Source: Phaeodactylibacter luteus
GTDB lineage: Bacteria; Bacteroidota; Bacteroidia; Chitinophagales; Saprospiraceae
DNA: 64,000 nt
NCBI RefSeq assembly: GCF_007993045.1
Contig: NZ_VOOR01000005.1
Coordinates: 1-64,000, forward strand
Direction: 5' to 3'
Both the position numbers and the translations under genes were made by a program. The notes under the pieces are model-generated. The model made no database searches and was not told the DNA's origin. It saw only the letters and a list, made by a program, of their open reading frames with translations. Positions 35,160-47,961 of this stretch are shown piece after piece (positions within the stretch are counted from its first letter, which is position 1; each line of letters opens with the position of its first letter).

Positions 35160-35563
35160 CTTTTTTCAGAAAGGTACGGTTTCCCGCACAAGGCTCAGGC
35201 ACAATGGGTACAGGTTTTGTAAGGCTTAGGCAATATTCCATAGGCCTGCAGGAGTTTAGTACCTATGAAAAGGGCGTAAACCAAATTCAAGCAGGCGTTT
35301 ATGTTTTCCGGGCTTCAGCCTGGCCTTGGCCTAGCGCTGCGAAGGGGGGTACGCCCGGTAGGGCCGAGCGGGCAGCGAGCCCCGGAGCATAGCGGCACCT
35401 GCCTGCTGGCAGGGGCAGGCCCCTATCCTTGCGGAGGGGGCAGGCCCATCACGCGAAGCAAGCTGTGCAGGCTAAAAAAACGATAATCTGTTTTGCGCCC
35501 ACACAAGAGCCCCTTGGAGCCAACTGCATATCACGCTTTCCATCAACTTTTAAACCCAAGCCC
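35160..35563. other. Intergenic region with family-1 repeat
   Basis: It is mostly copy F (35272-35500). A short spacer before DUF1287 contains no recognisable promoter box. An in-frame ATG at 35429 lies within the repeat and is not used as a start. Confidence 0.6.
35272..35500 (+). mobile_element. Family-1 MITE-like element, copy F
   Basis: The termini GGGCGTAAACCAAATT and AATCTGTTTTGCGCCC are inverted repeats (about 14 of 16 positions). The 229-bp copy has two successive GGGGGCAGGCCC blocks before the right end, like copies E and G. The flanking octamers do not match, so the target duplication has decayed or was lost. Confidence 0.72.
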
Positions 35564-36160
35564 ATGATGCCCCAAGCCTTCCTCTTCCTTTTGCTGTCAT
35601 CCGTTTTTCCGGGCCGCCATCAAACTGCGCCGCCTACAGCTGTATCTTTCTTCGACGAACTGGCAGACGCAGCACTGGGCCTCACGGCCCAGCAAGTACA
35701 GTATGACCCAGCTTACTTCTCCATCGATTACCCCATGGGGGATGTCCCTGCGCACAAAGGGGTATGCACAGATGTAGTCGTCCGTGCTTACCGCAAGGTA
35801 GGGATTGACTTGCAGCAGCTTGTGCACGAAGATATGCGGCGCAATTTCAGCCAGTACCCACAAAAGTGGGGCCTTAACCGTCCAGATCCTAATATTGACC
35901 ACCGGCGGGTGCCCAACCTGATGACATACTTCAAACGGCAAGGGGCCAGCCTCTCCACTTCACAATCTGCTGCAGACTATCAGCCTGGAGATGTCGTATG
36001 CTGGCAGCTTTCAGGCGGGCTCACCCATATCGGCATCGTCGGCCCGAATGTGAGCCATGCCGGGCGGCCGCTGATCATCCATAATATCGGAGGCGGGCAA
36101 AACGAGGACGATGTGCTGTTCGAATTCCCCATCATCGGGCACTACCGGTTTGGCGGCTGA
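35564..36160 (+). CDS. DUF1287 domain protein (NlpC/P60-like, secreted)
   Basis: The signal-like start MMPQAFLFLLLSSVF precedes a DUF1287 domain with YPMGDVPAHKGVCTDVVVRAYR (Cys68), NIDHRRVPNL (111-120) and GGLTHIGIVG (His155). The Cys/His pair is placed as in NlpC/P60-type papain-fold hydrolases, which cut peptidoglycan peptides. The function of DUF1287 proteins is not established in general. The start lies downstream of the repeat element; earlier ATGs lie in the repeat. Length 198 aa is normal. Confidence 0.85.
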   Translation: MMPQAFLFLLLSSVFPGRHQTAPPTAVSFFDELADAALGLTAQQVQYDPAYFSIDYPMGDVPAHKGVCTDVVVRAYRKVGIDLQQLVHEDMRRNFSQYPQKWGLNRPDPNIDHRRVPNLMTYFKRQGASLSTSQSAADYQPGDVVCWQLSGGLTHIGIVGPNVSHAGRPLIIHNIGGGQNEDDVLFEFPIIGHYRFGG

Positions 36161-36668: not shown

Positions 36669-37880
36669 TTAAGTCGTATACACAGAGTTGAACATCACAT
36701 AATCAGTGGTCAAGTCGGCGCCCCAGCCCCGGCCCTGGCCTTCGCCTTCGTTCATGTCCAATTTCACCCTAAGGTTAGACTCCCGCAGCAGCCTTTTTAC
36801 CCGGTTGCGGTCAAATGCGACCGGCTGCCCTTTGTCCAGCACTTGCACCATCTTCTCATTATCGCCCAAGAAGAGGTCTACATGGGTATAATCAAATGGC
36901 ACACCGGCATTGCCGGCAGCACAGATGATGCGCCCCCAGTTGGGGTCGCGCCCAAACATAGCGGCTTTGACGAGGGTGGAGTCCGAAATGGCACGCACGA
37001 GCTGCCGTGCGGTTTTATCGCTTGGCGCTCCTGCTACCTCGTACTCTACAAACTTTGAGGCCCCTTCTCCATCGGAAATAATAAGCTTGGCCAGGTGGAT
37101 CATCATATCTTCCAGCTTTTGCCGGAAGAGCTTGTACCCCTTGTCTTTTTCGGAAGCTATAGTTGTGTTGCCTGCCAGCCCATTGCAAAGCACGGCAACC
37201 ATGTCATTGGTAGAAGTATCCCCGTCTACCGTAATCATGTTGAAAGAGAGGTCCACACATGCTTTCACGGCTTTGTCGAGCAAAGCCGGCTCGATGGCTA
37301 CATCGGATACGATAAAGCCGAGCATAGTGCCCATATTGGGGTGTATCATGCCAGACCCCTTAGCAATGCCAGCTATATTGATGGCCTTCCCATCGAGCTC
37401 AAAATCCATAAACCCTTCTTTGGCAAAGGTGTCTGTAGTCAGGATAGCATTGGCTGCAAAAGAGCCGGCTTTGGCATCGCCGGAGATTTTGTCCATATTC
37501 TCTTTGATGCCGCGGACGACATCCTCCGTAGGGAAAGGCTCCCCGATCAGTCCGGTAGAGGCCACGAGGACATCTTCCTTGGCAATGCCCAGCTTCTCCG
37601 CAGCAGCCTGAGCCATCGCCTCGGCCCCTTTCCTGCCCTGATCGCCAGTACAAGCGTTGGCATTTCCCGCATTGCAAATGATGACCTGCGCTTTGCCGTC
37701 CCTGATATGCTCCCGGGATACTTTGATCGGCTCAGCGACCACCCGGTTGCGGGTAAACGTGCAAGCTGCGCTTGCCGGTACTTCAGAATGGATTATGGCC
37801 AGGTCGCGCCGCATGGATTTGATGCCAATGTGTGCGCCCCAGCATTTGATGCCACGTACGGTGGTTAAGTTTCTAATCAT
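36669..37880 (-). CDS. argJ: Glutamate N-acetyltransferase / ornithine acetyltransferase
   Basis: ArgJ recycles the acetyl group from N-acetylornithine to glutamate; bifunctional forms also use acetyl-CoA. NAGNANACTG (70-79), the NAILTTDTF region (144-152) and KGSGMIHPNMGTMLGF (174-189) identify it. In the last, Thr185 is the expected autocleavage nucleophile (M-G-T here, M-A-T in many homologues). Length 403 aa is full. It is the last gene of the seven-gene operon; together with ArgB, ArgC and ArgD it completes ornithine synthesis. Confidence 0.96.
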   Translation of the reverse strand: MIRNLTTVRGIKCWGAHIGIKSMRRDLAIIHSEVPASAACTFTRNRVVAEPIKVSREHIRDGKAQVIICNAGNANACTGDQGRKGAEAMAQAAAEKLGIAKEDVLVASTGLIGEPFPTEDVVRGIKENMDKISGDAKAGSFAANAILTTDTFAKEGFMDFELDGKAINIAGIAKGSGMIHPNMGTMLGFIVSDVAIEPALLDKAVKACVDLSFNMITVDGDTSTNDMVAVLCNGLAGNTTIASEKDKGYKLFRQKLEDMMIHLAKLIISDGEGASKFVEYEVAGAPSDKTARQLVRAISDSTLVKAAMFGRDPNWGRIICAAGNAGVPFDYTHVDLFLGDNEKMVQVLDKGQPVAFDRNRVKRLLRESNLRVKLDMNEGEGQGRGWGADLTTDYVMFNSVYTT

Positions 37881-37970
37881 GGTGTATGCTTGGTAATTGT
37901 TGGTCTGGTTTTAGCGTTTATCTGGAGTGTTTTTGTTTTGAAAATCAAAAGTTAGCGATTTAGGCCTGCC

Positions 37971-39002
37971 TCAAGGGTTGAGCGGGAGAGAGACAAAGCC
38001 TCTGTCTTGGGGGAGCCCAAATTGCAGGTTCATGTTTTGCATAGCCTGCCCCGCTGCCCCTTTGACGAGGTTGTCGATAGCAGACAGCGTAATGATGCGG
38101 CCCGTGCGCTCGTCGAAAGTGATGAAGATGTCGCAGAAGTTGGTGCCGCGCACGTCCTTCAGGGTAGGAGGAGTTTTGCGCAAGCGCACAAAAGGAGCAT
38201 GCCTGTAGAAGTCGGCGTACAGGCCCTTTAATTGTTTTTCCGACACGGGTTTGATGGGAGCAGCGTATATGGTAGACAATATGCCCCGGTCGACAGGCAG
38301 GAGATGAGGCGTGAACTGCACCGTGAGCTCCGAATGGTGCAGCCAGCCGAGCTGTTCCTGTATCTCTATGGTATGTCGGTGCGACTTCAGCCCATAGGCT
38401 TTAAAATTATCGTTCACATTGGAATAGTGAGTTGTGGGCTTAGCTTTGATGCCCGCACCAGTGATGCCCGATTTGGCGTCGATGATGATACTGGCAGGGT
38501 CGATCAGGCCGGCATGGGCCAAGGGGGCCAGCCCGAGTATAGCGCTTGTAGGGTAGCAGCCGGGGTTGGCGACAAGCGATGCTTTTGAAATCGCATTGGC
38601 ATGCAGCTCAGGCAGCCCGTACACTGCCCCTTGAAACCCAGATGGGAAGGTATGTGGCTTTTGGTACCAAGATTCGTATACCTGAGGCCCGGAGAGGCGG
38701 AAGTCGCCGGACAGGTCCACTATATTGAAAGCAGCTTGCTCGTATTGCTTTACATATTCCATGGACACCCCGTGGGGCAAGGCCAGGAAGACCATATCGA
38801 GTTCTTCTTCGAGCACAGCATCCGCGCCCTGCAAGGTGATATCCACTAGCCCTTCGAAGTGGGGGTGGACCGCCGAGAAGGGCTCCCCTTTCCTGCTCTC
38901 AGAAGTGATCATGTTCAGGGAGACATCCGGGTGGTTGTACAGAAGGCGCACCAGCTCAGACCCGGTATAGCCGGTGGCGCCAACAATCGCTGTTTTTATC
39001 AT
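37971..39002 (-). CDS. argC: N-acetyl-gamma-glutamyl-phosphate reductase
   Basis: ArgC reduces N-acetylglutamyl phosphate to the semialdehyde with NADPH. The Rossmann motif GATGYTGSELVRLL (8-21) and the active-site NPGCYPTSAILGL (Cys149) are diagnostic. Length 343 aa is normal for the bacterial type 1 enzyme. It lies between argD (upstream in transcription, 134-nt gap with a small CATTTTA/TAAAATG hairpin) and argJ. Confidence 0.97.
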   Translation of the reverse strand: MIKTAIVGATGYTGSELVRLLYNHPDVSLNMITSESRKGEPFSAVHPHFEGLVDITLQGADAVLEEELDMVFLALPHGVSMEYVKQYEQAAFNIVDLSGDFRLSGPQVYESWYQKPHTFPSGFQGAVYGLPELHANAISKASLVANPGCYPTSAILGLAPLAHAGLIDPASIIIDAKSGITGAGIKAKPTTHYSNVNDNFKAYGLKSHRHTIEIQEQLGWLHHSELTVQFTPHLLPVDRGILSTIYAAPIKPVSEKQLKGLYADFYRHAPFVRLRKTPPTLKDVRGTNFCDIFITFDERTGRIITLSAIDNLVKGAAGQAMQNMNLQFGLPQDRGFVSLPLNP

Positions 39003-39136
39003 TGCGTTCAGCTGTTGATTGGTAATAGACTTGATGCGCCGGGGGTCATTTTAGGGTTAAAATGGCTCTTTCCTTCCCGCTGCACAGGCCCGGTGTATCA
39101 AGTTTAATGTTTTGAGGATGGGCATGAGCAGGGGGG

Positions 39137-40354
39137 TTACAGCTCGCCCCTTTCTTCCATCAGCCCGATGCACTTGACGATCGTATCTGCCAGGTGTTCG
39201 AGCTCCTCGTAAGTAATCACGAGGGGCGGCACCATGCGCAGCACATGATCAGCTGTGGCATTGGCGATAACGCCGTGTTTGATCATTTCGAGGACCAGCG
39301 GCTTGGTGGGGAAGTCGAACTCTACCCCGATCATAAGGCCCAGGCCCCGGATGGCTTTCAGCTTAGGGTGGCCCCCGAGGCGGTCCTGCAGCATATTTTT
39401 CAGCCAGAAGCCTTTGCGCGAAGTCTGGCGCAAGAGGTCTTCTTCTTCTATGGCATTAAGTGTGGCCAGCCCGGCCGCGCAAGCCATAGGGTTGCCGCCA
39501 AATGTGGTGCCATGGTCGCCAAATTCTATGGCGCTGCTCACTTTTTCATTGCTTAGGATCGCCCCGACGGGCAGGCCGCTGCCCAAGCCTTTGGCCAAGG
39601 TCATGATATCGGGCTGTACCTCGTAGTGGTCTTTGGCAAACAGCTCTCCGGTGCGGCCTATGCCACATTGTATTTCATCAAAAATGAGCACAATATCTTC
39701 TTGGTCACAGAGCTCTCTCAGTGCGCGCAGGTAGCAAGGCTTTGCAACGTTGATGCCGCCTTCCCCTTGCACCGGCTCCAGGATAATGGCGGCCACATCG
39801 TGGCTGGCCAGGGCACGGACAGCCTCTATGTCATTGAACGGCACCTTATGGAAGCCCGCTGGCATAGGGCCGAAGCCCCGCTGCATTTTCTCCTTGCCAG
39901 TAGCGATGGTGGCCAGCGTACGGCCGTGGAAAGAGCCCTGCATACTGATGATGTGCCCGCCCCGCCCTTTGGTGAAAGCATACTTCCGTGCAATTTTGAT
40001 TGCCCCTTCAACGGATTCCGCCCCGCTATTGGAGAAGAATACGCGGTCCAGGCCAGAGCTTTGGACGAGCTTTTCCGAAAGGGCAACCTGCGGCTCGCTG
40101 ACGAAGAAGTTAGAAATGTGCATCAGCTGAGCGGCTTGCTCTTGTACCGCTTTGACCACCTTGGGGTGGCAGTGGCCGAGGTTGCAGACGGCAATCCCGG
40201 CAAGGGCATCGAGGTATTCCTTGCCTTCGACATCCCACATCCTGGCCCCCTGCGCCCGTTTGAACGCCAAGGGGATGCGGTTGAAGGTGGGCAGATAATA
40301 TTGGCGGTCGGCCTGGTACAAGGCCTGGTTGGTGGTTTTTTCTTCTACAAGCAT
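39137..40354 (-). CDS. argD: Acetylornithine aminotransferase
   Basis: A class III PLP aminotransferase. Features are FSNSGAESVEGAIKIARK (about 107-124), the cofactor aspartate in LIFDEIQCGIGRTG (about 223-236) and the Schiff-base lysine in TLAKGLGSGLPVGA (Lys255). Length 405 aa fits ArgD, and the arg context supports that over ornithine or 4-aminobutyrate aminotransferase. It overlaps the end of argB by 10 nt, indicating coupling. The next genes in the operon are argC and argJ. Confidence 0.95.
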   Translation of the reverse strand: MLVEEKTTNQALYQADRQYYLPTFNRIPLAFKRAQGARMWDVEGKEYLDALAGIAVCNLGHCHPKVVKAVQEQAAQLMHISNFFVSEPQVALSEKLVQSSGLDRVFFSNSGAESVEGAIKIARKYAFTKGRGGHIISMQGSFHGRTLATIATGKEKMQRGFGPMPAGFHKVPFNDIEAVRALASHDVAAIILEPVQGEGGINVAKPCYLRALRELCDQEDIVLIFDEIQCGIGRTGELFAKDHYEVQPDIMTLAKGLGSGLPVGAILSNEKVSSAIEFGDHGTTFGGNPMACAAGLATLNAIEEEDLLRQTSRKGFWLKNMLQDRLGGHPKLKAIRGLGLMIGVEFDFPTKPLVLEMIKHGVIANATADHVLRMVPPLVITYEELEHLADTIVKCIGLMEERGEL

Positions 40355-41178
40355 ATTTCTGTTCCGGTTGAATGAGAGGAAAGGACGGCCTTGGCTATGG
40401 TGTCCGGTTGAGTGCCATTGACGATGCGGGCCCGGCGGGCACCGCCCCGGAGCGCAGCCTCACAAGACTCCAATTTGGGGATCATGCCCCCTTTAATGAC
40501 GGTCCCCATCAGGCTGGGCAGTTCCGAAAGCGGCAACTCCCGTATGATAGAGGCTGGGTCGTTGAGGTCTCGTAGCAAGCCGTCTACATCAGTAAGCACA
40601 AGATAATCATCTGCAGCGAGAGCGCCGGCTAATGCGCCGGCAAACATATCTGCGTTGATATTGTAATCGTTCCCCTTTTTATCAGAGGCGATGCAGGTGA
40701 TGACGGGCAGGAAGCCGTGTTGCAGGAGGGTACGGGGCAGGGTGGTATCTATAGATTCGACATCGCCCACCTGGCCCAGGTCGTGCTTTACATCCTGTCC
40801 GTTTTCTTGGGCAAGGTGGTAGCGCTTCCGGGCTATGGCCATAGCGCCGTCCTTGCCGGATAGCCCAACGGCTTTCAGCCCAGATGCGTTAAGGAGGTTG
40901 ACCAAGCTGCTGTTTACTTCCCCTTTGAGGGCCATTTCTATATACTTCAGCGCTTCGGGCGTGGTCTTTCGGTGCCCGCCTATGAATTCAGAGGCGATGC
41001 CGGCCATATCGAGCGCCCGTTTGATGAATGGGCCGCCTCCGTGCACAAGTACGGTTTGCACCCCTCTTTCGGTCAGCTGCTTGATATTGTTGACGACAGC
41101 CTGCTTGAGGCCCTCGTTGAGCATAGCATTGCCGCCGTACTTGATGAGTGCCAGCGGTTTGTTTTCGGTTGCGTTCAT
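40345..41178 (-). CDS. argB: Acetylglutamate kinase
   Basis: ArgB phosphorylates N-acetylglutamate. Motifs: ALIKYGGNAM (8-18), VHGGGPFIKRAL and LVLTDVDGLL, of the amino-acid-kinase fold. The start MNATENKPLALIKYGG was chosen because an upstream ATG adds an unconserved leader overlapping the intercistronic hairpin. At 277 aa it is the short, arginine-insensitive-looking form lacking the N-terminal helix of feedback-inhibited ArgB, so allosteric arginine inhibition is less likely (family knowledge). Confidence 0.96.
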   Translation of the reverse strand: MNATENKPLALIKYGGNAMLNEGLKQAVVNNIKQLTERGVQTVLVHGGGPFIKRALDMAGIASEFIGGHRKTTPEALKYIEMALKGEVNSSLVNLLNASGLKAVGLSGKDGAMAIARKRYHLAQENGQDVKHDLGQVGDVESIDTTLPRTLLQHGFLPVITCIASDKKGNDYNINADMFAGALAGALAADDYLVLTDVDGLLRDLNDPASIIRELPLSELPSLMGTVIKGGMIPKLESCEAALRGGARRARIVNGTQPDTIAKAVLSSHSTGTEICL

Positions 41179-41200
41179 TGCGTTTTGTGTGAATGAATAA

Positions 41201-41236
41201 TTGTGCTGCAGCCCCATAGGCGGCGCTGCAGCACAA
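41201..41236. promoter_or_regulatory. Intercistronic hairpin between alr-like and argB genes
   Basis: A perfect 12-bp stem TTGTGCTGCAGC / GCTGCAGCACAA with a 10-nt loop. There is no T tract, so it is not a standard terminator; it could set mRNA stability or differential expression within the operon. Confidence 0.5.
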
Positions 41237-41243
41237 CGTAAGT

Positions 41244-42476
41244 TTACTTTACGATTTTTCTTGGGATGGCAGCCGGCAGGCGGCTGAGCATCTCGTTGTT
41301 CAGCAGCTGTACATAGTTGGTAAAAGAGCTGACATTGATCGTGTTGTTCTTTTGTTTGCCGAGCAGGACCACCTCCTCCCCGGGCTGTACGCCAGGTATA
41401 TCACTGACATCGGCCATGAAGAGGTTCATGTTGATGAGGCCCGTGATGGGGGCTTTCCTCCCTTTGATCAGTACATGCCCCCGGTTGGACTGCCCTCTTG
41501 GGTAGCCGTTGCAGTACCCGACCGGCACTACAGCCACGGTCATATTTCGGGTGGCCTGAAAAGAAGTGCCGTAGCCTATGAAGTCCCCTTTGGGCACATG
41601 CTTGATATCCATGACGTCCGTTTTCCAGCTGATGATGCGGCTCATAGGAGTGTCCTTCAGCTTCCCGGCCTGCTGAAGGTGCTGGTAATACACATCTGGG
41701 CTGGGCCAAAAGCCATAGGTAGCGACGCCCACCCGTACCAAATCGTAACGCGTCTCTGGCATCACAAGTGCGCTGGCAGAGCAGGCGATATGCCGGTAAA
41801 TGGGCATGAATTTCCGCTTGCGGCATTCCGAAAGGTATCCTTCATAGCGTTTTTTCTGCTGCTCGGTCCTAAAGTTGCTGCTGATAGACTCTGCGCCGGC
41901 TAAATGCGTACACAGCCCCTGAAAGGTAATGTACTCCTTATTGCGCTTCAGGAAGGTCAAGGCTTTTTTAAAGTAAGGCTCAGTCATGCCCGTCCGGTTG
42001 GTTCCGGTCTCTACCTCAACATGCACCCTGGCTTTCTTGGCCAGCTTCTTGCACTTTTCCAGCACCAGGGGCAGGCGGTCATAGTTGAAGACATAGAACT
42101 CGATATCATGGGCTATGGCCCACTCGATGTCCCGGTCGTACAGTATGCCCATAATCATGATATCGGTGCCTGCGCTGCGGTATTCCAGCACCTCTTCTGC
42201 TTCGTAGGCAGAGGCAACAGAGATGTGGTTCACCCCCATCCGGCAAAGCATGGTCACCATCTGTGGGATGCCGTGGCCGTAAGCATTGGCTTTGACCACG
42301 CAAGATAGGCGGGCCTCTGGCCCAATTTTCCTGCGCAGGAAGTTGATGTTCTTTTTCAGTGAAGACTGGCTGAGCTCTATCCGTGAAGTATGCCGGACAT
42401 TGCGCAAGAAAGGTTCGAAGTGGTGGGCCTGTTTTTTGGTCATTGGATTCAACGTTGTATTTGTAGCTATAGCCAT
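41244..42476 (-). CDS. alr: Alanine-racemase-like PLP enzyme (fold type III)
   Basis: The PLP lysine is Lys62 in CVVKANAYGHG and the second catalytic residue is Tyr302 in FIGYGTSFQ, so both racemase bases are present. Other family positions include VETGTNRTGM, ACSASAL and RVGVATYG. Two conserved loops are changed: the usual GYADGYPR reads GYCNGYPR and the usual CMDQ reads NMNL. Length 410 aa is normal. It overlaps the papain-like gene by 10 nt. D-Ala synthesis is the default inference, but the operon and the changed loops make another amino acid (for example ornithine) possible. Confidence 0.85.
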   Translation of the reverse strand: MAIATNTTLNPMTKKQAHHFEPFLRNVRHTSRIELSQSSLKKNINFLRRKIGPEARLSCVVKANAYGHGIPQMVTMLCRMGVNHISVASAYEAEEVLEYRSAGTDIMIMGILYDRDIEWAIAHDIEFYVFNYDRLPLVLEKCKKLAKKARVHVEVETGTNRTGMTEPYFKKALTFLKRNKEYITFQGLCTHLAGAESISSNFRTEQQKKRYEGYLSECRKRKFMPIYRHIACSASALVMPETRYDLVRVGVATYGFWPSPDVYYQHLQQAGKLKDTPMSRIISWKTDVMDIKHVPKGDFIGYGTSFQATRNMTVAVVPVGYCNGYPRGQSNRGHVLIKGRKAPITGLINMNLFMADVSDIPGVQPGEEVVLLGKQKNNTINVSSFTNYVQLLNNEMLSRLPAAIPRKIVK

Positions 42477-44428
42477 TGGTATTTCCGCCCCCAGCTTTCC
42501 TTAGCGAGCTGAGTAATGTGTGCAACGGTAGCTGTGGGCACCTTGCCGGGCTTGTCGCCCAGCCGGAGCTGATTGAAATGGTAGGCGTACACCCGAGCTG
42601 CAAATTGGGCGGCGGGCAGGGAAGATTCCCCATGCCGTTCTCCATGCCCGGAGACCGTAGGTGTGATGCGCTGCCCCCAGTCTTGTTTGCCCTGGCTGTT
42701 GGGGTTGAAAAAGTAAGCCCGCCACTCTCCGTCGGGAGCCTGTTCTATACGCAGTAGCGAAATGGCATGAAAGCCCAGCATATTGGCGCCAGAATCGGTG
42801 ATGAAAATACCCGCCGGCACCGGATAGATCAAGTGGTGCCCACCGTTGTATTCCGGGTGGAATGCAGCATAAAAGATACGGATAAACTCCTCGTAGTTCT
42901 CAATGCCGTAGAGCAGCGGGTTGTAAACGGACTTGAAGCCCGTTTGTATCCAGTGGCCGTAAAAGGCCGGGTTGACCGAGGCGTGTGGGTCTTTTCCGGG
43001 GTGTTTTAGGCTTGCCCGTTTCATCATCTCATTGTATACCTTATCGAGGTGGGGCACCAAGACGATGCTTACGGGGTCCAGTTTGAAGTCGAAGGCAGTT
43101 GTCAGCCCTTCTTGCACGCCAGCGGACTCTATCAGTTCGCCCTCGTAGCGGAAAACGGCATTATTGGTTGTGGCGGTATCGATCAATAGGTTGATCAGCT
43201 TGCCCGGCGCATGCCGGCTCCACATGCTGATGCCCCGGGCCGATTGGCAAGTGGGGTTGTTCCCTTGCCTTACCCCGAGCGGCTGCCCCAGCACACATAG
43301 GGTGCCGCCAATCAGGGCCTGCTCTGCTGTGAGCGCAAAGGGGCTAAGGTTGCCTTCCTCCAAACGCTCCCGGATGACCGGGTGCAGCCTAGCTTTGACC
43401 AAACGGCTGAAGGCGTGCCATACCGTCTTTTGGGAAAACAGATTGCGCTGCAGGGTACGGGCGAGCCCATAGACGCCCTGCTTGTTGCCTGGCACCAAAA
43501 AGCTGAGGATAAGCTGGTGCACAAACGCTTGGTGCCGCTCGTAGTCTGCCCTGCCGTGCGCATTGAGCGCTAAGGCAATAGGGACAAGCGCTGTGCGCTC
43601 TCTAGCGGCATATTGCAGGAATGCCAGCTGAAAAGTAGATACGAGGCCGGTATCCAACATTTGTTGGCTTAGGGCTTGTGCTTCCTGTTCTAGCGCCGCA
43701 TCCGGGAGGTGGGGGAGCTGCTCCGCATAATAATGAGCTGTGCCAGCCTTCTGTGCCAGCGGGGTTGGGGCGAACAATGCTTCTACATAAGCACGCAGTG
43801 GGCCGTCCAACAGGTCGGGCGGCAGGTGCTGCAGCTGTTCCAGGATACGCTTGATGCGTGTGACCACCACCGGCCGGTGTGCTATGATGGTTTCGATCTC
43901 TTCCTTCAAGTAGGGCAGGAGAGAGGGGAGCGGCAGGTGCTGTTTCAGCAAGTCAAAAAGCAGGCTTACCTTGCGGACTTCTGTACGGGTGTAACGTTCG
44001 TTTTCTGAGAGCTCCTCTGTACTGAAAGCATATTCGAAACCGTAAACGAGCACTTGCCGCAGGAAATGCCGGGCGGCCTCCGGAGGGCACCCGGGCAATG
44101 CGAGCCGCCCTTCGGCTACTGCTAGCATCCTCAGCTCGCTCAACATTTCTAAAGTGCTCCCCGCCGGGCCAGAGAGCAGGGTGCCGGCTACAAGGCCTGG
44201 CACAAGGCGGGAAGGGTCTTCCCAAGGGGTGCCAGCGAACAGCCCAGAACGGTGTATTGCGGCAATGTTTTCATACAGGTGTGCCATGCCTGCTGCGTCT
44301 TGTGCCAGAAGATCGGCTTGGCTGAGGAGGCGCTTGCGCTTCTCCTCCCGTGCGAATAAAGGCGCATGCTCGAAGGCCGCAAGGCTTTCGTACAATCGTG
44401 CTTCCCGTTCGCTCAAGGTTAATGCCAT
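42467..44428 (-). CDS. Unrecognised protein with papain-like Gln/Cys/His/Asn arrangement
   Basis: Not recognised from any named family. The N-terminal 370 residues look helical. The C-terminal part has VRQGNNPTCQSARG (Gln388, Cys394; spacing of 6 as in papain Gln19/Cys25), NMLGFHAISLLRIE (His554) and AYFFNPNSQGKQDWG (Asn575 or 577). The HAIxxL and aromatic-N-x-N strands imitate the His and Asn strands of papain-like hydrolases and transglutaminases. Predicted: a cysteine hydrolase/acyltransferase of unknown substrate, cytoplasmic (no signal). It is translationally coupled to the racemase-like gene by a 10-nt overlap and follows the ATP-grasp gene by 72 nt. Annotated function: unknown. Confidence 0.7.
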   Translation of the reverse strand: MALTLSEREARLYESLAAFEHAPLFAREEKRKRLLSQADLLAQDAAGMAHLYENIAAIHRSGLFAGTPWEDPSRLVPGLVAGTLLSGPAGSTLEMLSELRMLAVAEGRLALPGCPPEAARHFLRQVLVYGFEYAFSTEELSENERYTRTEVRKVSLLFDLLKQHLPLPSLLPYLKEEIETIIAHRPVVVTRIKRILEQLQHLPPDLLDGPLRAYVEALFAPTPLAQKAGTAHYYAEQLPHLPDAALEQEAQALSQQMLDTGLVSTFQLAFLQYAARERTALVPIALALNAHGRADYERHQAFVHQLILSFLVPGNKQGVYGLARTLQRNLFSQKTVWHAFSRLVKARLHPVIRERLEEGNLSPFALTAEQALIGGTLCVLGQPLGVRQGNNPTCQSARGISMWSRHAPGKLINLLIDTATTNNAVFRYEGELIESAGVQEGLTTAFDFKLDPVSIVLVPHLDKVYNEMMKRASLKHPGKDPHASVNPAFYGHWIQTGFKSVYNPLLYGIENYEEFIRIFYAAFHPEYNGGHHLIYPVPAGIFITDSGANMLGFHAISLLRIEQAPDGEWRAYFFNPNSQGKQDWGQRITPTVSGHGERHGESSLPAAQFAARVYAYHFNQLRLGDKPGKVPTATVAHITQLAKESWGRKYQWL

Positions 44429-44462
44429 AGGCGGTACTGTTCGTTTTGGTGCGTTTGTGCTT

Positions 44463-44490
44463 CCAAAGCTGCTAGCAGCAGCAGCTTTGG
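44463..44490. promoter_or_regulatory. Intercistronic hairpin between ATP-grasp and papain-like genes
   Basis: A perfect 11-bp stem CCAAAGCTGCT / AGCAGCTTTGG with a 6-nt loop lies after the ATP-grasp stop. No T tract; it may modulate how much downstream mRNA is made or retained. Confidence 0.5.
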
Positions 44491-44500
44491 GGCATTAGGG

Positions 44501-45724
44501 TTATACATAAAAAGGGACGTCTTCGTAATGCTTGAGCAGTTCGCGTATCCTTGCGGGATCTTCCCCTGCAAAGTTTACCGTGCCAAAGTGGTTGCCGAAG
44601 CCTTCCCGGGCATTGATTTTCTGAGGCCCAAGGGGCTGGGTGAGATTGTTGTCGAGGTAGTACGGCTCTTCCAGCAGCTCTTCAGGGATTTCCAGGCGGC
44701 TGATCTGCGCAGCTTTAGGGAAAACCATGACATTGCCAAAATGCTTAGGGGGCATGTAGCCGCGGGGCGGGAAGTAGCGGTCTAGCTCCTCTTCCGTCAT
44801 ATTGGGGTCGTGGCTGACCACGAAAGCCAGCAGGGCGTCAAAACCGTAGGCCTGCCCGCAAAGCTCGAGGATATGGCCGCCAGGGATGCGGCAGGCCACT
44901 TCACCGAAGTTGATCTGTTTGCCATCCTCGCTCACAAACCACTCGGGGTGGATCATGCCGTATTCGATGCCAAAGATGTCTACCAGCTTTTGGACCTCAT
45001 TGTGGATCAGCTCGCGCTTGGCCTCCAGCTCGGGCCCGGCGGGGATGAAGTTGGAATAGCCCAGCTTAACATACTCCGTGATATTCAGAAAGCGGATTTT
45101 CCCTTTATGGATAAAAGCCTCGCAAGAGAATTCCTGCCCTTGCAGGTGGCTTTCTACTAAGCAAGGGAAATCCTTGATGCTCATCTTGCGGTCAATATCT
45201 TCCCGCGACTTGATGAAGTGGTGCCCGACGGTGCCTGCTGCTGCAAAAGGCTTGGCGTGGAACCAGGCATCGTCTTCGCCTTCGAGTTGCAGCTCCGCTT
45301 CATTGAGCCGGTCTAAGAATTTATGCACCTGTTCCAAGCTGTGCACTTCCTCGAACAGGCCGACCCTCAGCCCGCCGAGCAGCGCCTTGCGCTTCATCAT
45401 CGCTTTATTCCGGAACAGGAAAGCCCGGTTGAGCACGCGGGGGTCATTGCGGTAGATGGAGTTGAGGGCCCCTGCCCACTCTACCGTCTCTTCGTAAAGG
45501 GGGACGGCTACATCCACATCAAAAGGGCGGAGTAGCTCTGCCAAGCCAACGGAGTTGGAGTGGGAGCCGAATTCGTCAAGGTGGTACCCTACAAAGGGTA
45601 TTTCATGGGTTTTAGCGTAGCTTTCAAAGTCGGGGAAGGAGACGACGACATAGGGGAGCCCGGCTTTCTGCATGCTTTCGATGACAGGCAAGCTCCAGCC
45701 AATAAGGGCAAATCGGTTAGCCAT
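44501..45724 (-). CDS. ATP-grasp carboxylate-amine ligase
   Basis: A free-standing ATP-grasp protein of 407 aa. The central domain runs from RNKAMMKRKAL (about 108) through AWFHAKPFAAAGTVGHHF (ATP-binding Lys and flexible Gly loop) to CLVESHLQGQEFSCEAF. The metal- and acceptor-binding end is INFGEVACRIPGGHILEL. The N-terminal 100 residues have the carbamoyl-phosphate-synthase-like layout of amino-acid ligases. It should activate a carboxylate as acyl phosphate and join it to an amine or thiol; the substrates are unknown. It is the first gene of the ornithine operon, so one substrate may be an ornithine-pathway product (inference). Confidence 0.85.
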   Translation of the reverse strand: MANRFALIGWSLPVIESMQKAGLPYVVVSFPDFESYAKTHEIPFVGYHLDEFGSHSNSVGLAELLRPFDVDVAVPLYEETVEWAGALNSIYRNDPRVLNRAFLFRNKAMMKRKALLGGLRVGLFEEVHSLEQVHKFLDRLNEAELQLEGEDDAWFHAKPFAAAGTVGHHFIKSREDIDRKMSIKDFPCLVESHLQGQEFSCEAFIHKGKIRFLNITEYVKLGYSNFIPAGPELEAKRELIHNEVQKLVDIFGIEYGMIHPEWFVSEDGKQINFGEVACRIPGGHILELCGQAYGFDALLAFVVSHDPNMTEEELDRYFPPRGYMPPKHFGNVMVFPKAAQISRLEIPEELLEEPYYLDNNLTQPLGPQKINAREGFGNHFGTVNFAGEDPARIRELLKHYEDVPFYV

Positions 45725-46255
45725 AAGGTGTCGGATCAGTTTTTATTTGAGTAATTCAATGTAAAATTTTATGTCAGGGGCCAATCGGGCGTAAACCAAA
45801 ATGCCGCAGGGGGTTATGCTTTTAGGCTGGAATCGGACTAGCGCTGCGAAGGGGTGGCTGAAGGCCAGACCCGACGCCTGTAGGGCGAGGGGCCGAGCGG
45901 GCAGCGAGCCCCGCAGCATAGCGACCCCTGCTGTTAGGCAGGGGTAGGCCCCACCGCATTGTGCAGGGGCAGGCCCAAAAGAAACGAATAGCCTGCGCCC
46001 GGGTGGATCAGCGGCTTGGTACCGTGTTCAGCTCGGCACCGAGGGTATAGTTGCCTCTAAAATAAATCACGAAAATACGGAGTTGTTGCTGTTTTATGGC
46101 ACGTTTGCAAGTAAAATGTGATTTAAAAGAACAATACTTTAAGCAAAACAAAGGTTTTGGCGCATTTGTGCGCACTGGCTGACTATTTTTTAATCAAACG
46201 CAGCTGAAGGTGTATTCCTTTCGGAGTTGTGCCAATAGGCGGTATATTTATGCTT
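45725..46255. other. Divergent intergenic region with family-1 repeat
   Basis: Copy G fills the left half (45787-45999). The right half is AT-rich and probably holds promoters for the IMPase-like gene; no exact TAnnTTTG box is seen. The minus strand ahead of the ATP-grasp gene contains only a weak TACATTGA-like box. Confidence 0.55.
45787..45999 (+). mobile_element. Family-1 MITE-like element, copy G
   Basis: The left end GGGCGTAAACCAAAATGCCG is typical; the right end GAATAGCCTGCGCCC resembles that of copy D. It contains the extra GACCCGACGCCTGTAGGGCG module of copy E. It lies just upstream of the seven-gene operon, so it could influence that promoter. The flanking octamers agree only partially. 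Confidence 0.72.
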
Positions 46256-47068
46256 ATGAACAAAGAGCGCATTTTGACTTACATGAAACAGAGCGCCCGG
46301 AAAGCAGGGGCATTGATGATGGCCAACTTGAGCGGGGGGTATCAGGTGTACACGAAACCGGACCGTTCCCGGGTGACGGATGTTGATCTGGCGATCTCCG
46401 ATATGCTGCAACAGACCCTTCCCAAAGCGCTGCCCGGGGTGGCCCTTTACAGCGAGGAATCCCCTAAGCGGACGATCGACCGGGGCAAGGCTTACCTGAT
46501 CGCAGATGAGCTGGACGGGACGAGCTATTTTATCGATTACCAGAAGGGGTTCTCGCATCAGGCCGCCTTTTACGACCCTTCTGAAGGCTTGGTGGCGGGG
46601 CTGGTCTACCACCCGGATATAGAAGTGATGCTGTATGCTGTAAAAGGAGGGGGCGCGTACTGGGAGAGGGGGGGCAGTGGGGCAGAGCGCATCCCTGCTC
46701 CTGTTGTGAAAGCCCGTCATGACCTGTGCTTTGCCCACCCTATGCGCTACCGGGGCGATAAGTACAGAGGCCTGTACTTGGCCCTTGGTGGCAGGGAGGA
46801 GAACATACTGCGTACGGATGCCCGGCGCACCCTGCTCATGGCCGAGGGCAAACTCGATGTAAACATTTTCCTTTCGCCCCGTATCCCTTATTGGGATTTG
46901 TTGGGGGAAAAAGTCATTGTGGAGGAGCTGGGGTACAGCCACAGCTATCTGGATGGCAGCCCGGTACAATTTGGCATTGACCCGCCTGCGGGCAACAAAG
47001 GCTACCTCATCTGCCCGGCTACATACAAGGGGGCACTCATTAAAGAAACTCACGCTCACATTTCATGA
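46256..47068 (+). CDS. Inositol monophosphatase family protein
   Basis: The IMPase/CysQ fold is shown by the metal-binding sequence SEESP (about 68-72), ADELDGTSYF (about 84-93, for the usual DPLDGT) and the C-terminal PYWDLLGEKVIVEELG (W-D-x-x-x-x motif). Dispensing with DP gives a DE variant. Such enzymes dephosphorylate inositol phosphates, PAP, or sugar phosphates using Mg2+. The start MNKERILTYMKQ was preferred over two earlier ATGs for lack of conservation. The stop overlaps the GHMP kinase start by 4 nt (ATGA), implying a linked role in phosphorylation chemistry. Confidence 0.85.
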   Translation: MNKERILTYMKQSARKAGALMMANLSGGYQVYTKPDRSRVTDVDLAISDMLQQTLPKALPGVALYSEESPKRTIDRGKAYLIADELDGTSYFIDYQKGFSHQAAFYDPSEGLVAGLVYHPDIEVMLYAVKGGGAYWERGGSGAERIPAPVVKARHDLCFAHPMRYRGDKYRGLYLALGGREENILRTDARRTLLMAEGKLDVNIFLSPRIPYWDLLGEKVIVEELGYSHSYLDGSPVQFGIDPPAGNKGYLICPATYKGALIKETHAHIS

Positions 47069-47961
47069 ACAGACCTTCTTCATCCACGCCCGGTAAGCTG
47101 CTGCTGTTCGGCGAGCACGTCATCTTGAAAGGGAGCCAAGCGCTGGCTACGCCACTGGACCGCTTCTATGGCCTCTGGTCTGCTGAGGGGTCAGCAGAGC
47201 CAGCTTATCAGCTGATGCCTTTTGCAGCGCACCTGCATCATTTGAGCAAGACGAGCGGCCTGCTGGCCAACTTAGACACCAGCCGGTTTTGCGAGGAGGC
47301 GGCCTCTGGTCTGTCTTTCGAATCCAACATCCCAGTAGGTTACGGGGCTGGCAGTTCAGGGGCGCTATGTGCAGCCGTGCTGAAGCGCTATGGTGCGGCA
47401 AGCGGCATAAAGGCCCGCGGGCTGGGGCCGCTGCGGGCGATGTTGGCGCAGATGGAAAGCTTTTTCCATGGGGAGAGCTCAGGCACGGACCCGCTGATTT
47501 GTTACCTAGAGCAGACGGTGCTGCTTGAAGGTGCAGCAGTGGCAGTGGTAGCCCCCCCTAAACGGGAGAGCGGCTTGTTTTTTCTGATAGATACGGGCAT
47601 CAGCCGCAGCACAGCCCCTTGGGTGCGCCTGTTTTTGGAGCGCTGTGGGCAGGCAGCATTTGCTGCGATGGCTAAAGAGGAGCTTATCCCGGCGACACGG
47701 GCAGCTATAGCTGCTTACCTGTCAAAGGACACAGCTGGGCTCTTGGAGAGCATAGGCCAGATTTCAGCTCTTCAATGGTTGTATTTTCGGGATTTCATCC
47801 CGGAGGCATTTCAAGGCTTGTGGGAGCAGGGGCTGTCAGCTCAAGCCGGCTATCGGCTGAAGCTATGCGGCGCAGGCGGCGGCGGGTTCATATTGGGCTA
47901 TGCTACAGGCCCAGATGCAGTGCCCGTCAGAGAAGGGGTGGCCCTGCTGCCAAAAATTTAG
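47065..47961 (+). CDS. GHMP kinase family protein
   Basis: GHMP-type small-molecule kinase with the N-terminal GKLLLFGEHVILKG (11-24), the phosphate-binding SNIPVGYGAGSSGAL (about 92-106, P-x-G-x-G-S-S variant) and LCGAGGGGFILGY near the C-terminus. The arrangement resembles mevalonate or galactokinase-like kinases but 298 aa and lineage suggest a Bacteroidota-specific mevalonate-kinase-like enzyme; the substrate is not certain. It is coupled to the IMPase-like gene and both are plus-strand, ending at a hairpin. Confidence 0.85.
   Translation: MNRPSSSTPGKLLLFGEHVILKGSQALATPLDRFYGLWSAEGSAEPAYQLMPFAAHLHHLSKTSGLLANLDTSRFCEEAASGLSFESNIPVGYGAGSSGALCAAVLKRYGAASGIKARGLGPLRAMLAQMESFFHGESSGTDPLICYLEQTVLLEGAAVAVVAPPKRESGLFFLIDTGISRSTAPWVRLFLERCGQAAFAAMAKEELIPATRAAIAAYLSKDTAGLLESIGQISALQWLYFRDFIPEAFQGLWEQGLSAQAGYRLKLCGAGGGGFILGYATGPDAVPVREGVALLPKI

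Follow-up and report, generated by a model that had tools for sequence, protein, structure and literature searches.

L-amino acid ligases act by way of an acyl phosphate; among them, RizA makes Arg-X dipeptides specifically, as set out in excerpts of PMC9321006. Glutathionylspermidine synthetase carries a papain-like CHAP part, according to passages of PMC10318531, and these passages, together with parts of PMC2922099, describe BtrH of butirosin synthesis as a papain-like acyltransferase in which the fold serves acyl transfer and not proteolysis. Here, we describe an operon of seven minus-strand genes at positions 36669-45724 of a 64,000-nucleotide window (the whole stretch of DNA analyzed, positions 1 to 64,000 of contig NZ_VOOR01000005.1 of Phaeodactylibacter luteus), in which an ATP-grasp ligase, a papain-like protein of 653 amino acids (P653) and an Alr-like racemase precede four genes of ornithine synthesis, argB, argD, argC and argJ. 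This triplet and the ornithine genes probably turn ornithine into a small molecule. We consider it very likely that ornithine is the feed of the ligase-P653 system, delivery by the arg cassette to the ligase-P653 pair being the step that we hold most firmly, and on balance we favor a dedicated operon that turns ornithine into a product.

The initial annotation had proposed seven minus-strand genes, and all of them are present as open reading frames (ORFs) at these coordinates with the functions assigned to them. In order of transcription, they encode the ATP-grasp ligase (407 amino acids; 44501..45724; from the ORF list and Pfam ATP-grasp_4), which is the first gene of the operon; P653 (42467..44428), with a helical N-terminal part and a C-terminal papain-like domain marked by Q388, C394, H554 and N575; the Alr-like racemase (41244..42476), a pyridoxal phosphate enzyme by its Alr domains and TIGR00492; ArgB, acetylglutamate kinase (40345..41217; TIGR00761, 217 bits against a cut-off of 151); ArgD, acetylornithine aminotransferase (39137..40354; TIGR00707, 488 against 410 bits); ArgC, acetylglutamyl-phosphate reductase (37971..39002; TIGR01850, 432 against 234 bits); and ArgJ, ornithine acetyltransferase, which releases free ornithine (36669..37880; TIGR00120, 438 against 298 bits). 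The four Arg products and the racemase all exceed their NCBIfam cut-offs. The intergenic distances, again in order of transcription, are 72, -10, 26, -10, 134 and 90 nucleotides. A 10-nucleotide overlap had been claimed at two junctions: that of argB and argD is present, here and in relatives L015 and L016 (G and L labels are our own), while that of P653 and the racemase gene holds only on an ATG that lies 11 codons upstream of the start in relatives L013 and L015, which lack this start codon, and becomes a short gap if their start is used. The gene order recurs in relatives and is therefore not due to chance; because it is stable among them, we provisionally set aside a mobile element.

We examined the distribution of P653. 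It was found in 11 of 59 relatives, 4 of 395 genomes in a phylum-wide sample and 17 of 298 in the window's own family, with the window's own genome included in these three counts. It was also found in 9 of 92 genomes in a second family (f43) and 13 of 193 in the Neobacillus family, and a scan of named genomes gave ten P653 loci, including those of Mongoliibacter, Aquiflexum, Marivirga, Lunatibacter and two Neobacillus. In total, P653 is present in 33 Bacteroidota genomes (29 labeled within G000-G747, L013-L016 among them, plus L017-L020), 13 Bacillota genomes and one Halomonas. The suggestion that the three upstream genes belong together was borne out, since, within the reach of the contigs, all 33 Bacteroidota genomes that have P653 keep the order ATP-grasp, P653, Alr-like; the triplet is complete in 24, and contig ends truncate or split it in the other 9 (G002, G018, G533, G574, G690, G727, G737, G745 and G746).

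The presence of P653 goes with that of argJ. In the window's family (f1), we found argJ in 18 of 18 genomes with P653 and in only 1 of 25 others (by genus, in 8 of 8 and 1 of 25); Fisher tests, uncorrected for kinship, gave 3e-11 by genome and 6e-7 by genus. A genome of the same genus that is 61% complete and has no P653 match (G003) was left out of this comparison. Across all 35 P653 genomes tested, argJ exceeded its curated cut-off in 31; argJ is cut by a contig end in two of the other four (G160 and G727), and G745 and G760 gave no proper match. The sole f1 genome with argJ and without P653, G035, retains, directly before argB (L090 5830-6175), ligase codons 1-38 (89% identical) and 19 residues from the end of the racemase; the middle of the operon is gone. 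Thus, with remnants of both ligase and racemase before argB, G035 appears to hold a gutted copy, most likely of a once complete operon from which the middle was lost. On these gene counts, what marks the f1 carriers out is argJ retention.

The initial annotation had also allowed for ordinary arginine synthesis with unrelated passenger genes. The window holds the same four enzymes as ornithine synthesis in general, all above curated cut-offs, but it holds them in one operon with the ligase module, and beside a separate arginine operon on another contig. As noted earlier for argF, argG and argH, no later arginine gene is in the window operon; argG, argH and N-acetylornithine carbamoyltransferase (AOTCase) lie on that other contig of the same genome, in a row of argH, an ArgE-like deacylase, argB, AOTCase, argC and argG, which thus has an argB and argC of its own but no second argJ. 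There, argH, argB, argC and the carbamoyltransferase (304 against 288 bits) are over their cut-offs, and argG (255 against 268 bits) and the ArgE-like deacylase are below theirs. AOTCase carbamoylates N-acetylornithine, according to excerpts of PMC4581275, and the route encoded by the separate operon is predicted to bypass free ornithine. This second operon disfavors arginine synthesis with passengers, which is the weaker reading. Moreover, nine P653 genomes have argBDCJ and no argG or argH above a weak background (G012, G013, G018, G034, G533, G609, G657, G690 and G047); seven of these are at least 90% complete, and argJ of G013 is cut by a contig end. Carbamoyltransferase matches in the nine are split fragments, which we take to be aspartate carbamoyltransferase, apart from one full-length match in G609 and none in G533. 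G002 (83% complete) also lacks argG and argH but was not counted, because its genus mates have the arginine operon; in G025, argH is present and no argG was found. Thus, argBDCJ need not mean arginine synthesis, a point that could mislead automated pathway calls.

The link between the ligase-P653 pair and arg genes is seen again in Bacillota, where 10 of the 13 P653 genomes have the ligase with an adjacent P653 (P653a) and a second copy (P653b). Five of these 10 have arg genes next to a P653 gene. Between P653a and P653b, G871 carries argC-J-B-D and G763 carries argC-J-B. In G916, argC-J-B is followed by the contig end; in G913, argC-J-B-D adjoins P653b, and P653a is the last gene of a different contig; and in G921 (L168 9387-10616), the two P653 genes flank argJ alone, without argC, argB or argD. 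The other three (G842, G862 and G863) have one P653 match, which is a partial copy in G862, and no ligase match. ArgJ of the Bacillota cassettes shares 54-57% identity with the main ArgJ of Bacillus and 41-45% with that of Bacteroidota; for ArgC, the respective values are 49-57% and 41-46%. Since the cassette argJ and argC are closer to the main Bacillus genes, these identities suggest separate recruitment, such that ornithine genes would have joined the ligase-P653 pair at least twice. In Halomonas sp. PA16-9, the pair lies side by side on a 1.8-Mb plasmid record (L070 10732-14070), at a place where no gene is listed; the flanks read there contained neither a racemase nor arg genes, and this is the single record of the plasmid collection with the pair. 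We also noted a GNAT-family gene divergent from the ligase in one Bacillota locus (L022 7944-8507) and in 8 further loci of Neobacillus type; it may acetylate the product or be unrelated.

Several observations weigh against a dedicated ornithine-to-product operon. First, the claimed tie between the triplet and arg genes stood only in part. By adjacency, it fails the test set for it: arg genes adjoin the triplet in just 11 of the 33 Bacteroidota genomes, with argB-D-C-J downstream in G000, G001, G002, G004 (argB, then the contig end), G005, G025, G542, G615 and G477 and upstream in G012 and G282. In the remaining 22, the visible stretch, which is short in several cases, shows no arg genes next to the triplet. 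What does support the tie, besides the Bacillota loci, is that 20 of these 22 genomes have argJ at another place, together with two or three of argB, argC and argD; all four genes are together in 16 (counting G160 and G727 with their cut argJ), and argJ is with two others in G266, G711, G746 and G747. No argG, argH or carbamoyltransferase was noticed beside these 20 distant cassettes when their neighbors were read by eye. The two genomes without such a cassette are G745 (74% complete), which has no argJ match at all, and Marivirga (G760), which has the triplet but an argJ-like match of only 264 amino acids and 26% identity. Second, argJ matches 155 of the 395 phylum-sampled genomes and P653 only 4 (the argJ matches listed there are all labeled as the same phylum except the own genome); argJ is thus frequent in distant lineages, where finding it is no proof by itself. 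Third, a full-length argG is likewise missing from 13 of the 25 f1 genomes without P653, in which argB, argC and argD were not searched, and the single arg set of f43 genomes such as G266 probably serves arginine too, because ornithine carbamoyltransferase, argG and argH are together elsewhere in them. In the window's genus, no argD was seen in the stretches read of the separate arginine operon, and therefore the window argD may serve both pathways. Finally, outside Bacteroidota, no racemase lies beside the ligase-P653 pair in either Bacillota or Halomonas; the Bacillota cassette ArgD is not clearly separated (44-46% to Bacillus, 39-44% to Bacteroidota), and no main Bacillus copy was found for comparison with argB; the triad is intact in the lone P653 of G842, a genome with no ligase match; and the fold matches of P653, described below, are all below Z 8.

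Some of these observations would fit a redundant supply of ornithine for arginine, proline and polyamines, with an unrelated triplet that is nearby for regulation: the triplet and the arg cassette are non-adjacent in 22 of the 33 Bacteroidota genomes (with short contigs in some), argJ without P653 is frequent in the rest of the phylum, and the Marivirga triplet has no true argJ. However, such a supply does not account for the joint presence of argJ and P653 in family f1, the joint remnant in G035, the arg cassette in Bacillota, or argBDCJ without argG or argH in nine genomes, and we consider it improbable. We thus prefer that ArgB, ArgC, ArgD and ArgJ, whose identities are clear from their profile scores, would make free L-ornithine beside the arginine pathway and supply it to the ligase.

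The ligase is barely over the cut-off of Pfam ATP-grasp_4 (PF13535; 28.1 against 27 bits), its sole Pfam match. In a profile search against the PDB, RizA and BL00235 were the only matches at E <= 0.01, and the same two led the fold search (Foldseek), with RizA at the top (E 6.7e-23), phosphoribosylglycinamide synthetase next and then the ligase YwfE/BacD. Since 533 chains matched by fold at E 0.001 or better, this match shows the ligase class and not the substrate. K107, K158, E261, E275 and R279 are invariant in 39 of 39 ligase rows (partial genes excluded), and K107, K158, E275 and R279 are presumably the ATP and Mg residues of the motif. Thus, the window ligase resembles RizA and BL00235, which rank first among PDB entries in both searches, in keeping the key ATP-grasp residues, but differs from them in being accompanied by P653 and in sharing only 17-20% identity over the fold match. 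By analogy with this class, we think amide ligation by the ATP-grasp enzyme reasonably likely: it would activate a carboxylate as an acyl phosphate and couple it to an amine, ornithine being one of the two partners, to give a dipeptide-like amide. The proposal of an ornithine amide follows from the enzyme class, which is that of the nearest folds; ornithine as its substrate we infer.

P653 matches nothing in Pfam at E <= 0.1 and nothing in NCBIfam at E <= 0.01, and 17 members searched against Pfam gave only 8 unrelated weak matches (best E 0.0012). The initial annotation had called this protein papain-like by eye, a guess that holds at the level of residues: a Gln lies six before the Cys, as in papain, and His and Asn follow in papain order. 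Q388 and C394 are present in 54 of 54 rows and H554 and N575 in 53 of 54, the one row without the latter pair being the lone P653 copy of G863 (L175 8538-10379), a genome without a ligase match. These counts and the tree below cover copies of more than 550 amino acids, and hence neither the split copies in G018 and in G746 nor the partial one in G862. In an AlphaFold2 model built from 17 sequences (mean predicted local distance difference test score 86), a helical N-terminal part precedes a C-terminal domain in which the Cys opens a helix, the His lies within a strand and the Asn follows the next strand. The best structural matches of this domain were mostly of papain fold (calpains, staphopains and papain-like toxins), with Z at most 7.4, below the decisive level; the best Foldseek match had an E of only 0.055. 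P653 is thus, to judge from its residues, a conserved family of putative cysteine enzymes without a Pfam or NCBIfam match. Profile matches of P653 to designed pentatricopeptide repeats were rejected as artefacts of repetition (the two chains displayed gave 0.7-2.9 bits per repeat). A weak RtxA match (E 0.77) was also noted. In a tree of the 54 rows, the Bacteroidota proteins, P653a and P653b are separate, although the placement of the long Halomonas and P653b branches is unsure; the nearest P653 among named isolates is that of Phaeodactylibacter xiamenensis. We found no P653 relative in viral contigs, one P653 match in PHROGs at E 0.05 only, and no match for the ligase, P653 or the racemase in a defense library, a result that says little against a defense role.

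From these residues, we infer that P653 would form a thioester on Cys394, with a second amine or water as the next acceptor of the acyl group, such that the conjugate would be elongated, exchanged or degraded. Alternatively, P653 could be mainly an amidase that breaks the ornithine amide made by the ATP-grasp enzyme, the two forming a make-and-break pair around a reversible store, as in glutathionylspermidine synthetase/amidase. An ATP-grasp enzyme with a papain-like cysteine amidase acting on an amine conjugate is a known pairing, one that joins an ATP-grasp ligase to the papain-like domain mentioned above, and the P653 Cys, His and Asn are kept in every tested row from ligase-carrying genomes. 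However, the synthetase/amidase is one fused chain, compared to two genes here with a racemase and arg genes besides. Its Pfam domains matched neither the ligase, which matches only ATP-grasp_4, nor P653, which matches nothing in Pfam. A single amidase would also leave unexplained the two P653 matches in each of the 10 ligase-carrying Bacillota genomes, and would leave the racemase without a role. We therefore regard a make-and-break pair as rather unlikely.

If the ligase instead loads a carrier-like partner, P653 could be an acyltransferase working from that carrier, as BtrH does with a carrier loaded by BtrJ, an ATP-grasp enzyme. The papain-like fold used for acyl transfer in BtrH (passages of PMC10318531 and PMC2922099) provides a precedent for the P653 domain, but BtrH acts from its carrier protein on an aminoglycoside, and its Pfam domain, BtrH_N, was matched by none of the 17 P653 members. 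Furthermore, no recurring carrier-sized ORF was noticed by eye at an ORF cut-off of 80 amino acids, below which smaller ones are missed. We find this arrangement very improbable.

The racemase contains the Alr N- and C-terminal domains and scores 265 bits with TIGR00492 against a cut-off of 168. Like alanine and serine racemases, it has both Alr domains and keeps the catalytic Lys62 and Tyr302. In contrast, it has N323 and N349-M350-N351 where the five Alr/serine racemase structures in the alignment carry D and C/T-M-D. The N-M-N and N-G motifs, in place of C/T-M-D and the D-G of an A-D-G motif, are found in 30 of 30 racemase rows (partial genes excluded), and since the five structures have D at these positions, the racemase is a distinct Alr subfamily, whose substrate may differ from alanine. 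Broad-specificity and lysine racemases matched as well, and the motif comparison covers the five Alr/serine structures only. The family of this enzyme is clear, and it would racemize an amino acid, most simply ornithine, to give one D residue in the product. Formation of D-ornithine is possible, but we would not count on it.

Taken together, we tentatively propose an undescribed system, in Bacteroidota, Bacillota and one Halomonas replicon, that would convert ornithine, in many cases supplied by ArgB, ArgC, ArgD and ArgJ of its own, into a new amide, containing a D-amino acid where the racemase is present, with P653 as a new papain-like family that would transfer acyl groups and not cleave proteins. 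Inspection by eye showed no signal peptide in the ligase, P653 or the racemase, in keeping with an intracellular molecule, for instance a storage compound or an osmolyte. That the product is an intracellular solute is the weakest step and seems doubtful to us. A siderophore or nonribosomal peptide product and transporters were provisionally set aside, on a neighborhood in which few ORFs were assigned to families. Some host names hint at saline habitats, an observation that touches the osmolyte idea. Combined-term searches of the literature turned up no publication about this set of genes, although an earlier mention of the pair in the 2009 survey of ATP-grasp amidoligases by Iyer et al. is possible. 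The operon points to an ornithine-derived small molecule in bacteria of unrelated phyla that these searches did not turn up, and the gene set is compact enough for direct expression and testing.

In the operon region, no match was found to a Bacteroidota promoter pattern (4 matches in the whole window, 1.5 expected), and an Rfam scan of the window gave nothing at gathering score. A sigma-70-like site lies upstream of the ligase at 45795-45766, although such sites are no more numerous than in shuffled sequence. A DUF1287 protein (35429-36160; 240 bits) is the convergent neighbor of argJ. On the other side, divergent from the operon, lie an inositol-phosphatase-like and a GHMP-kinase-like gene (46229-47961), which, by eye, are also beside it in L013, L015 and L016.

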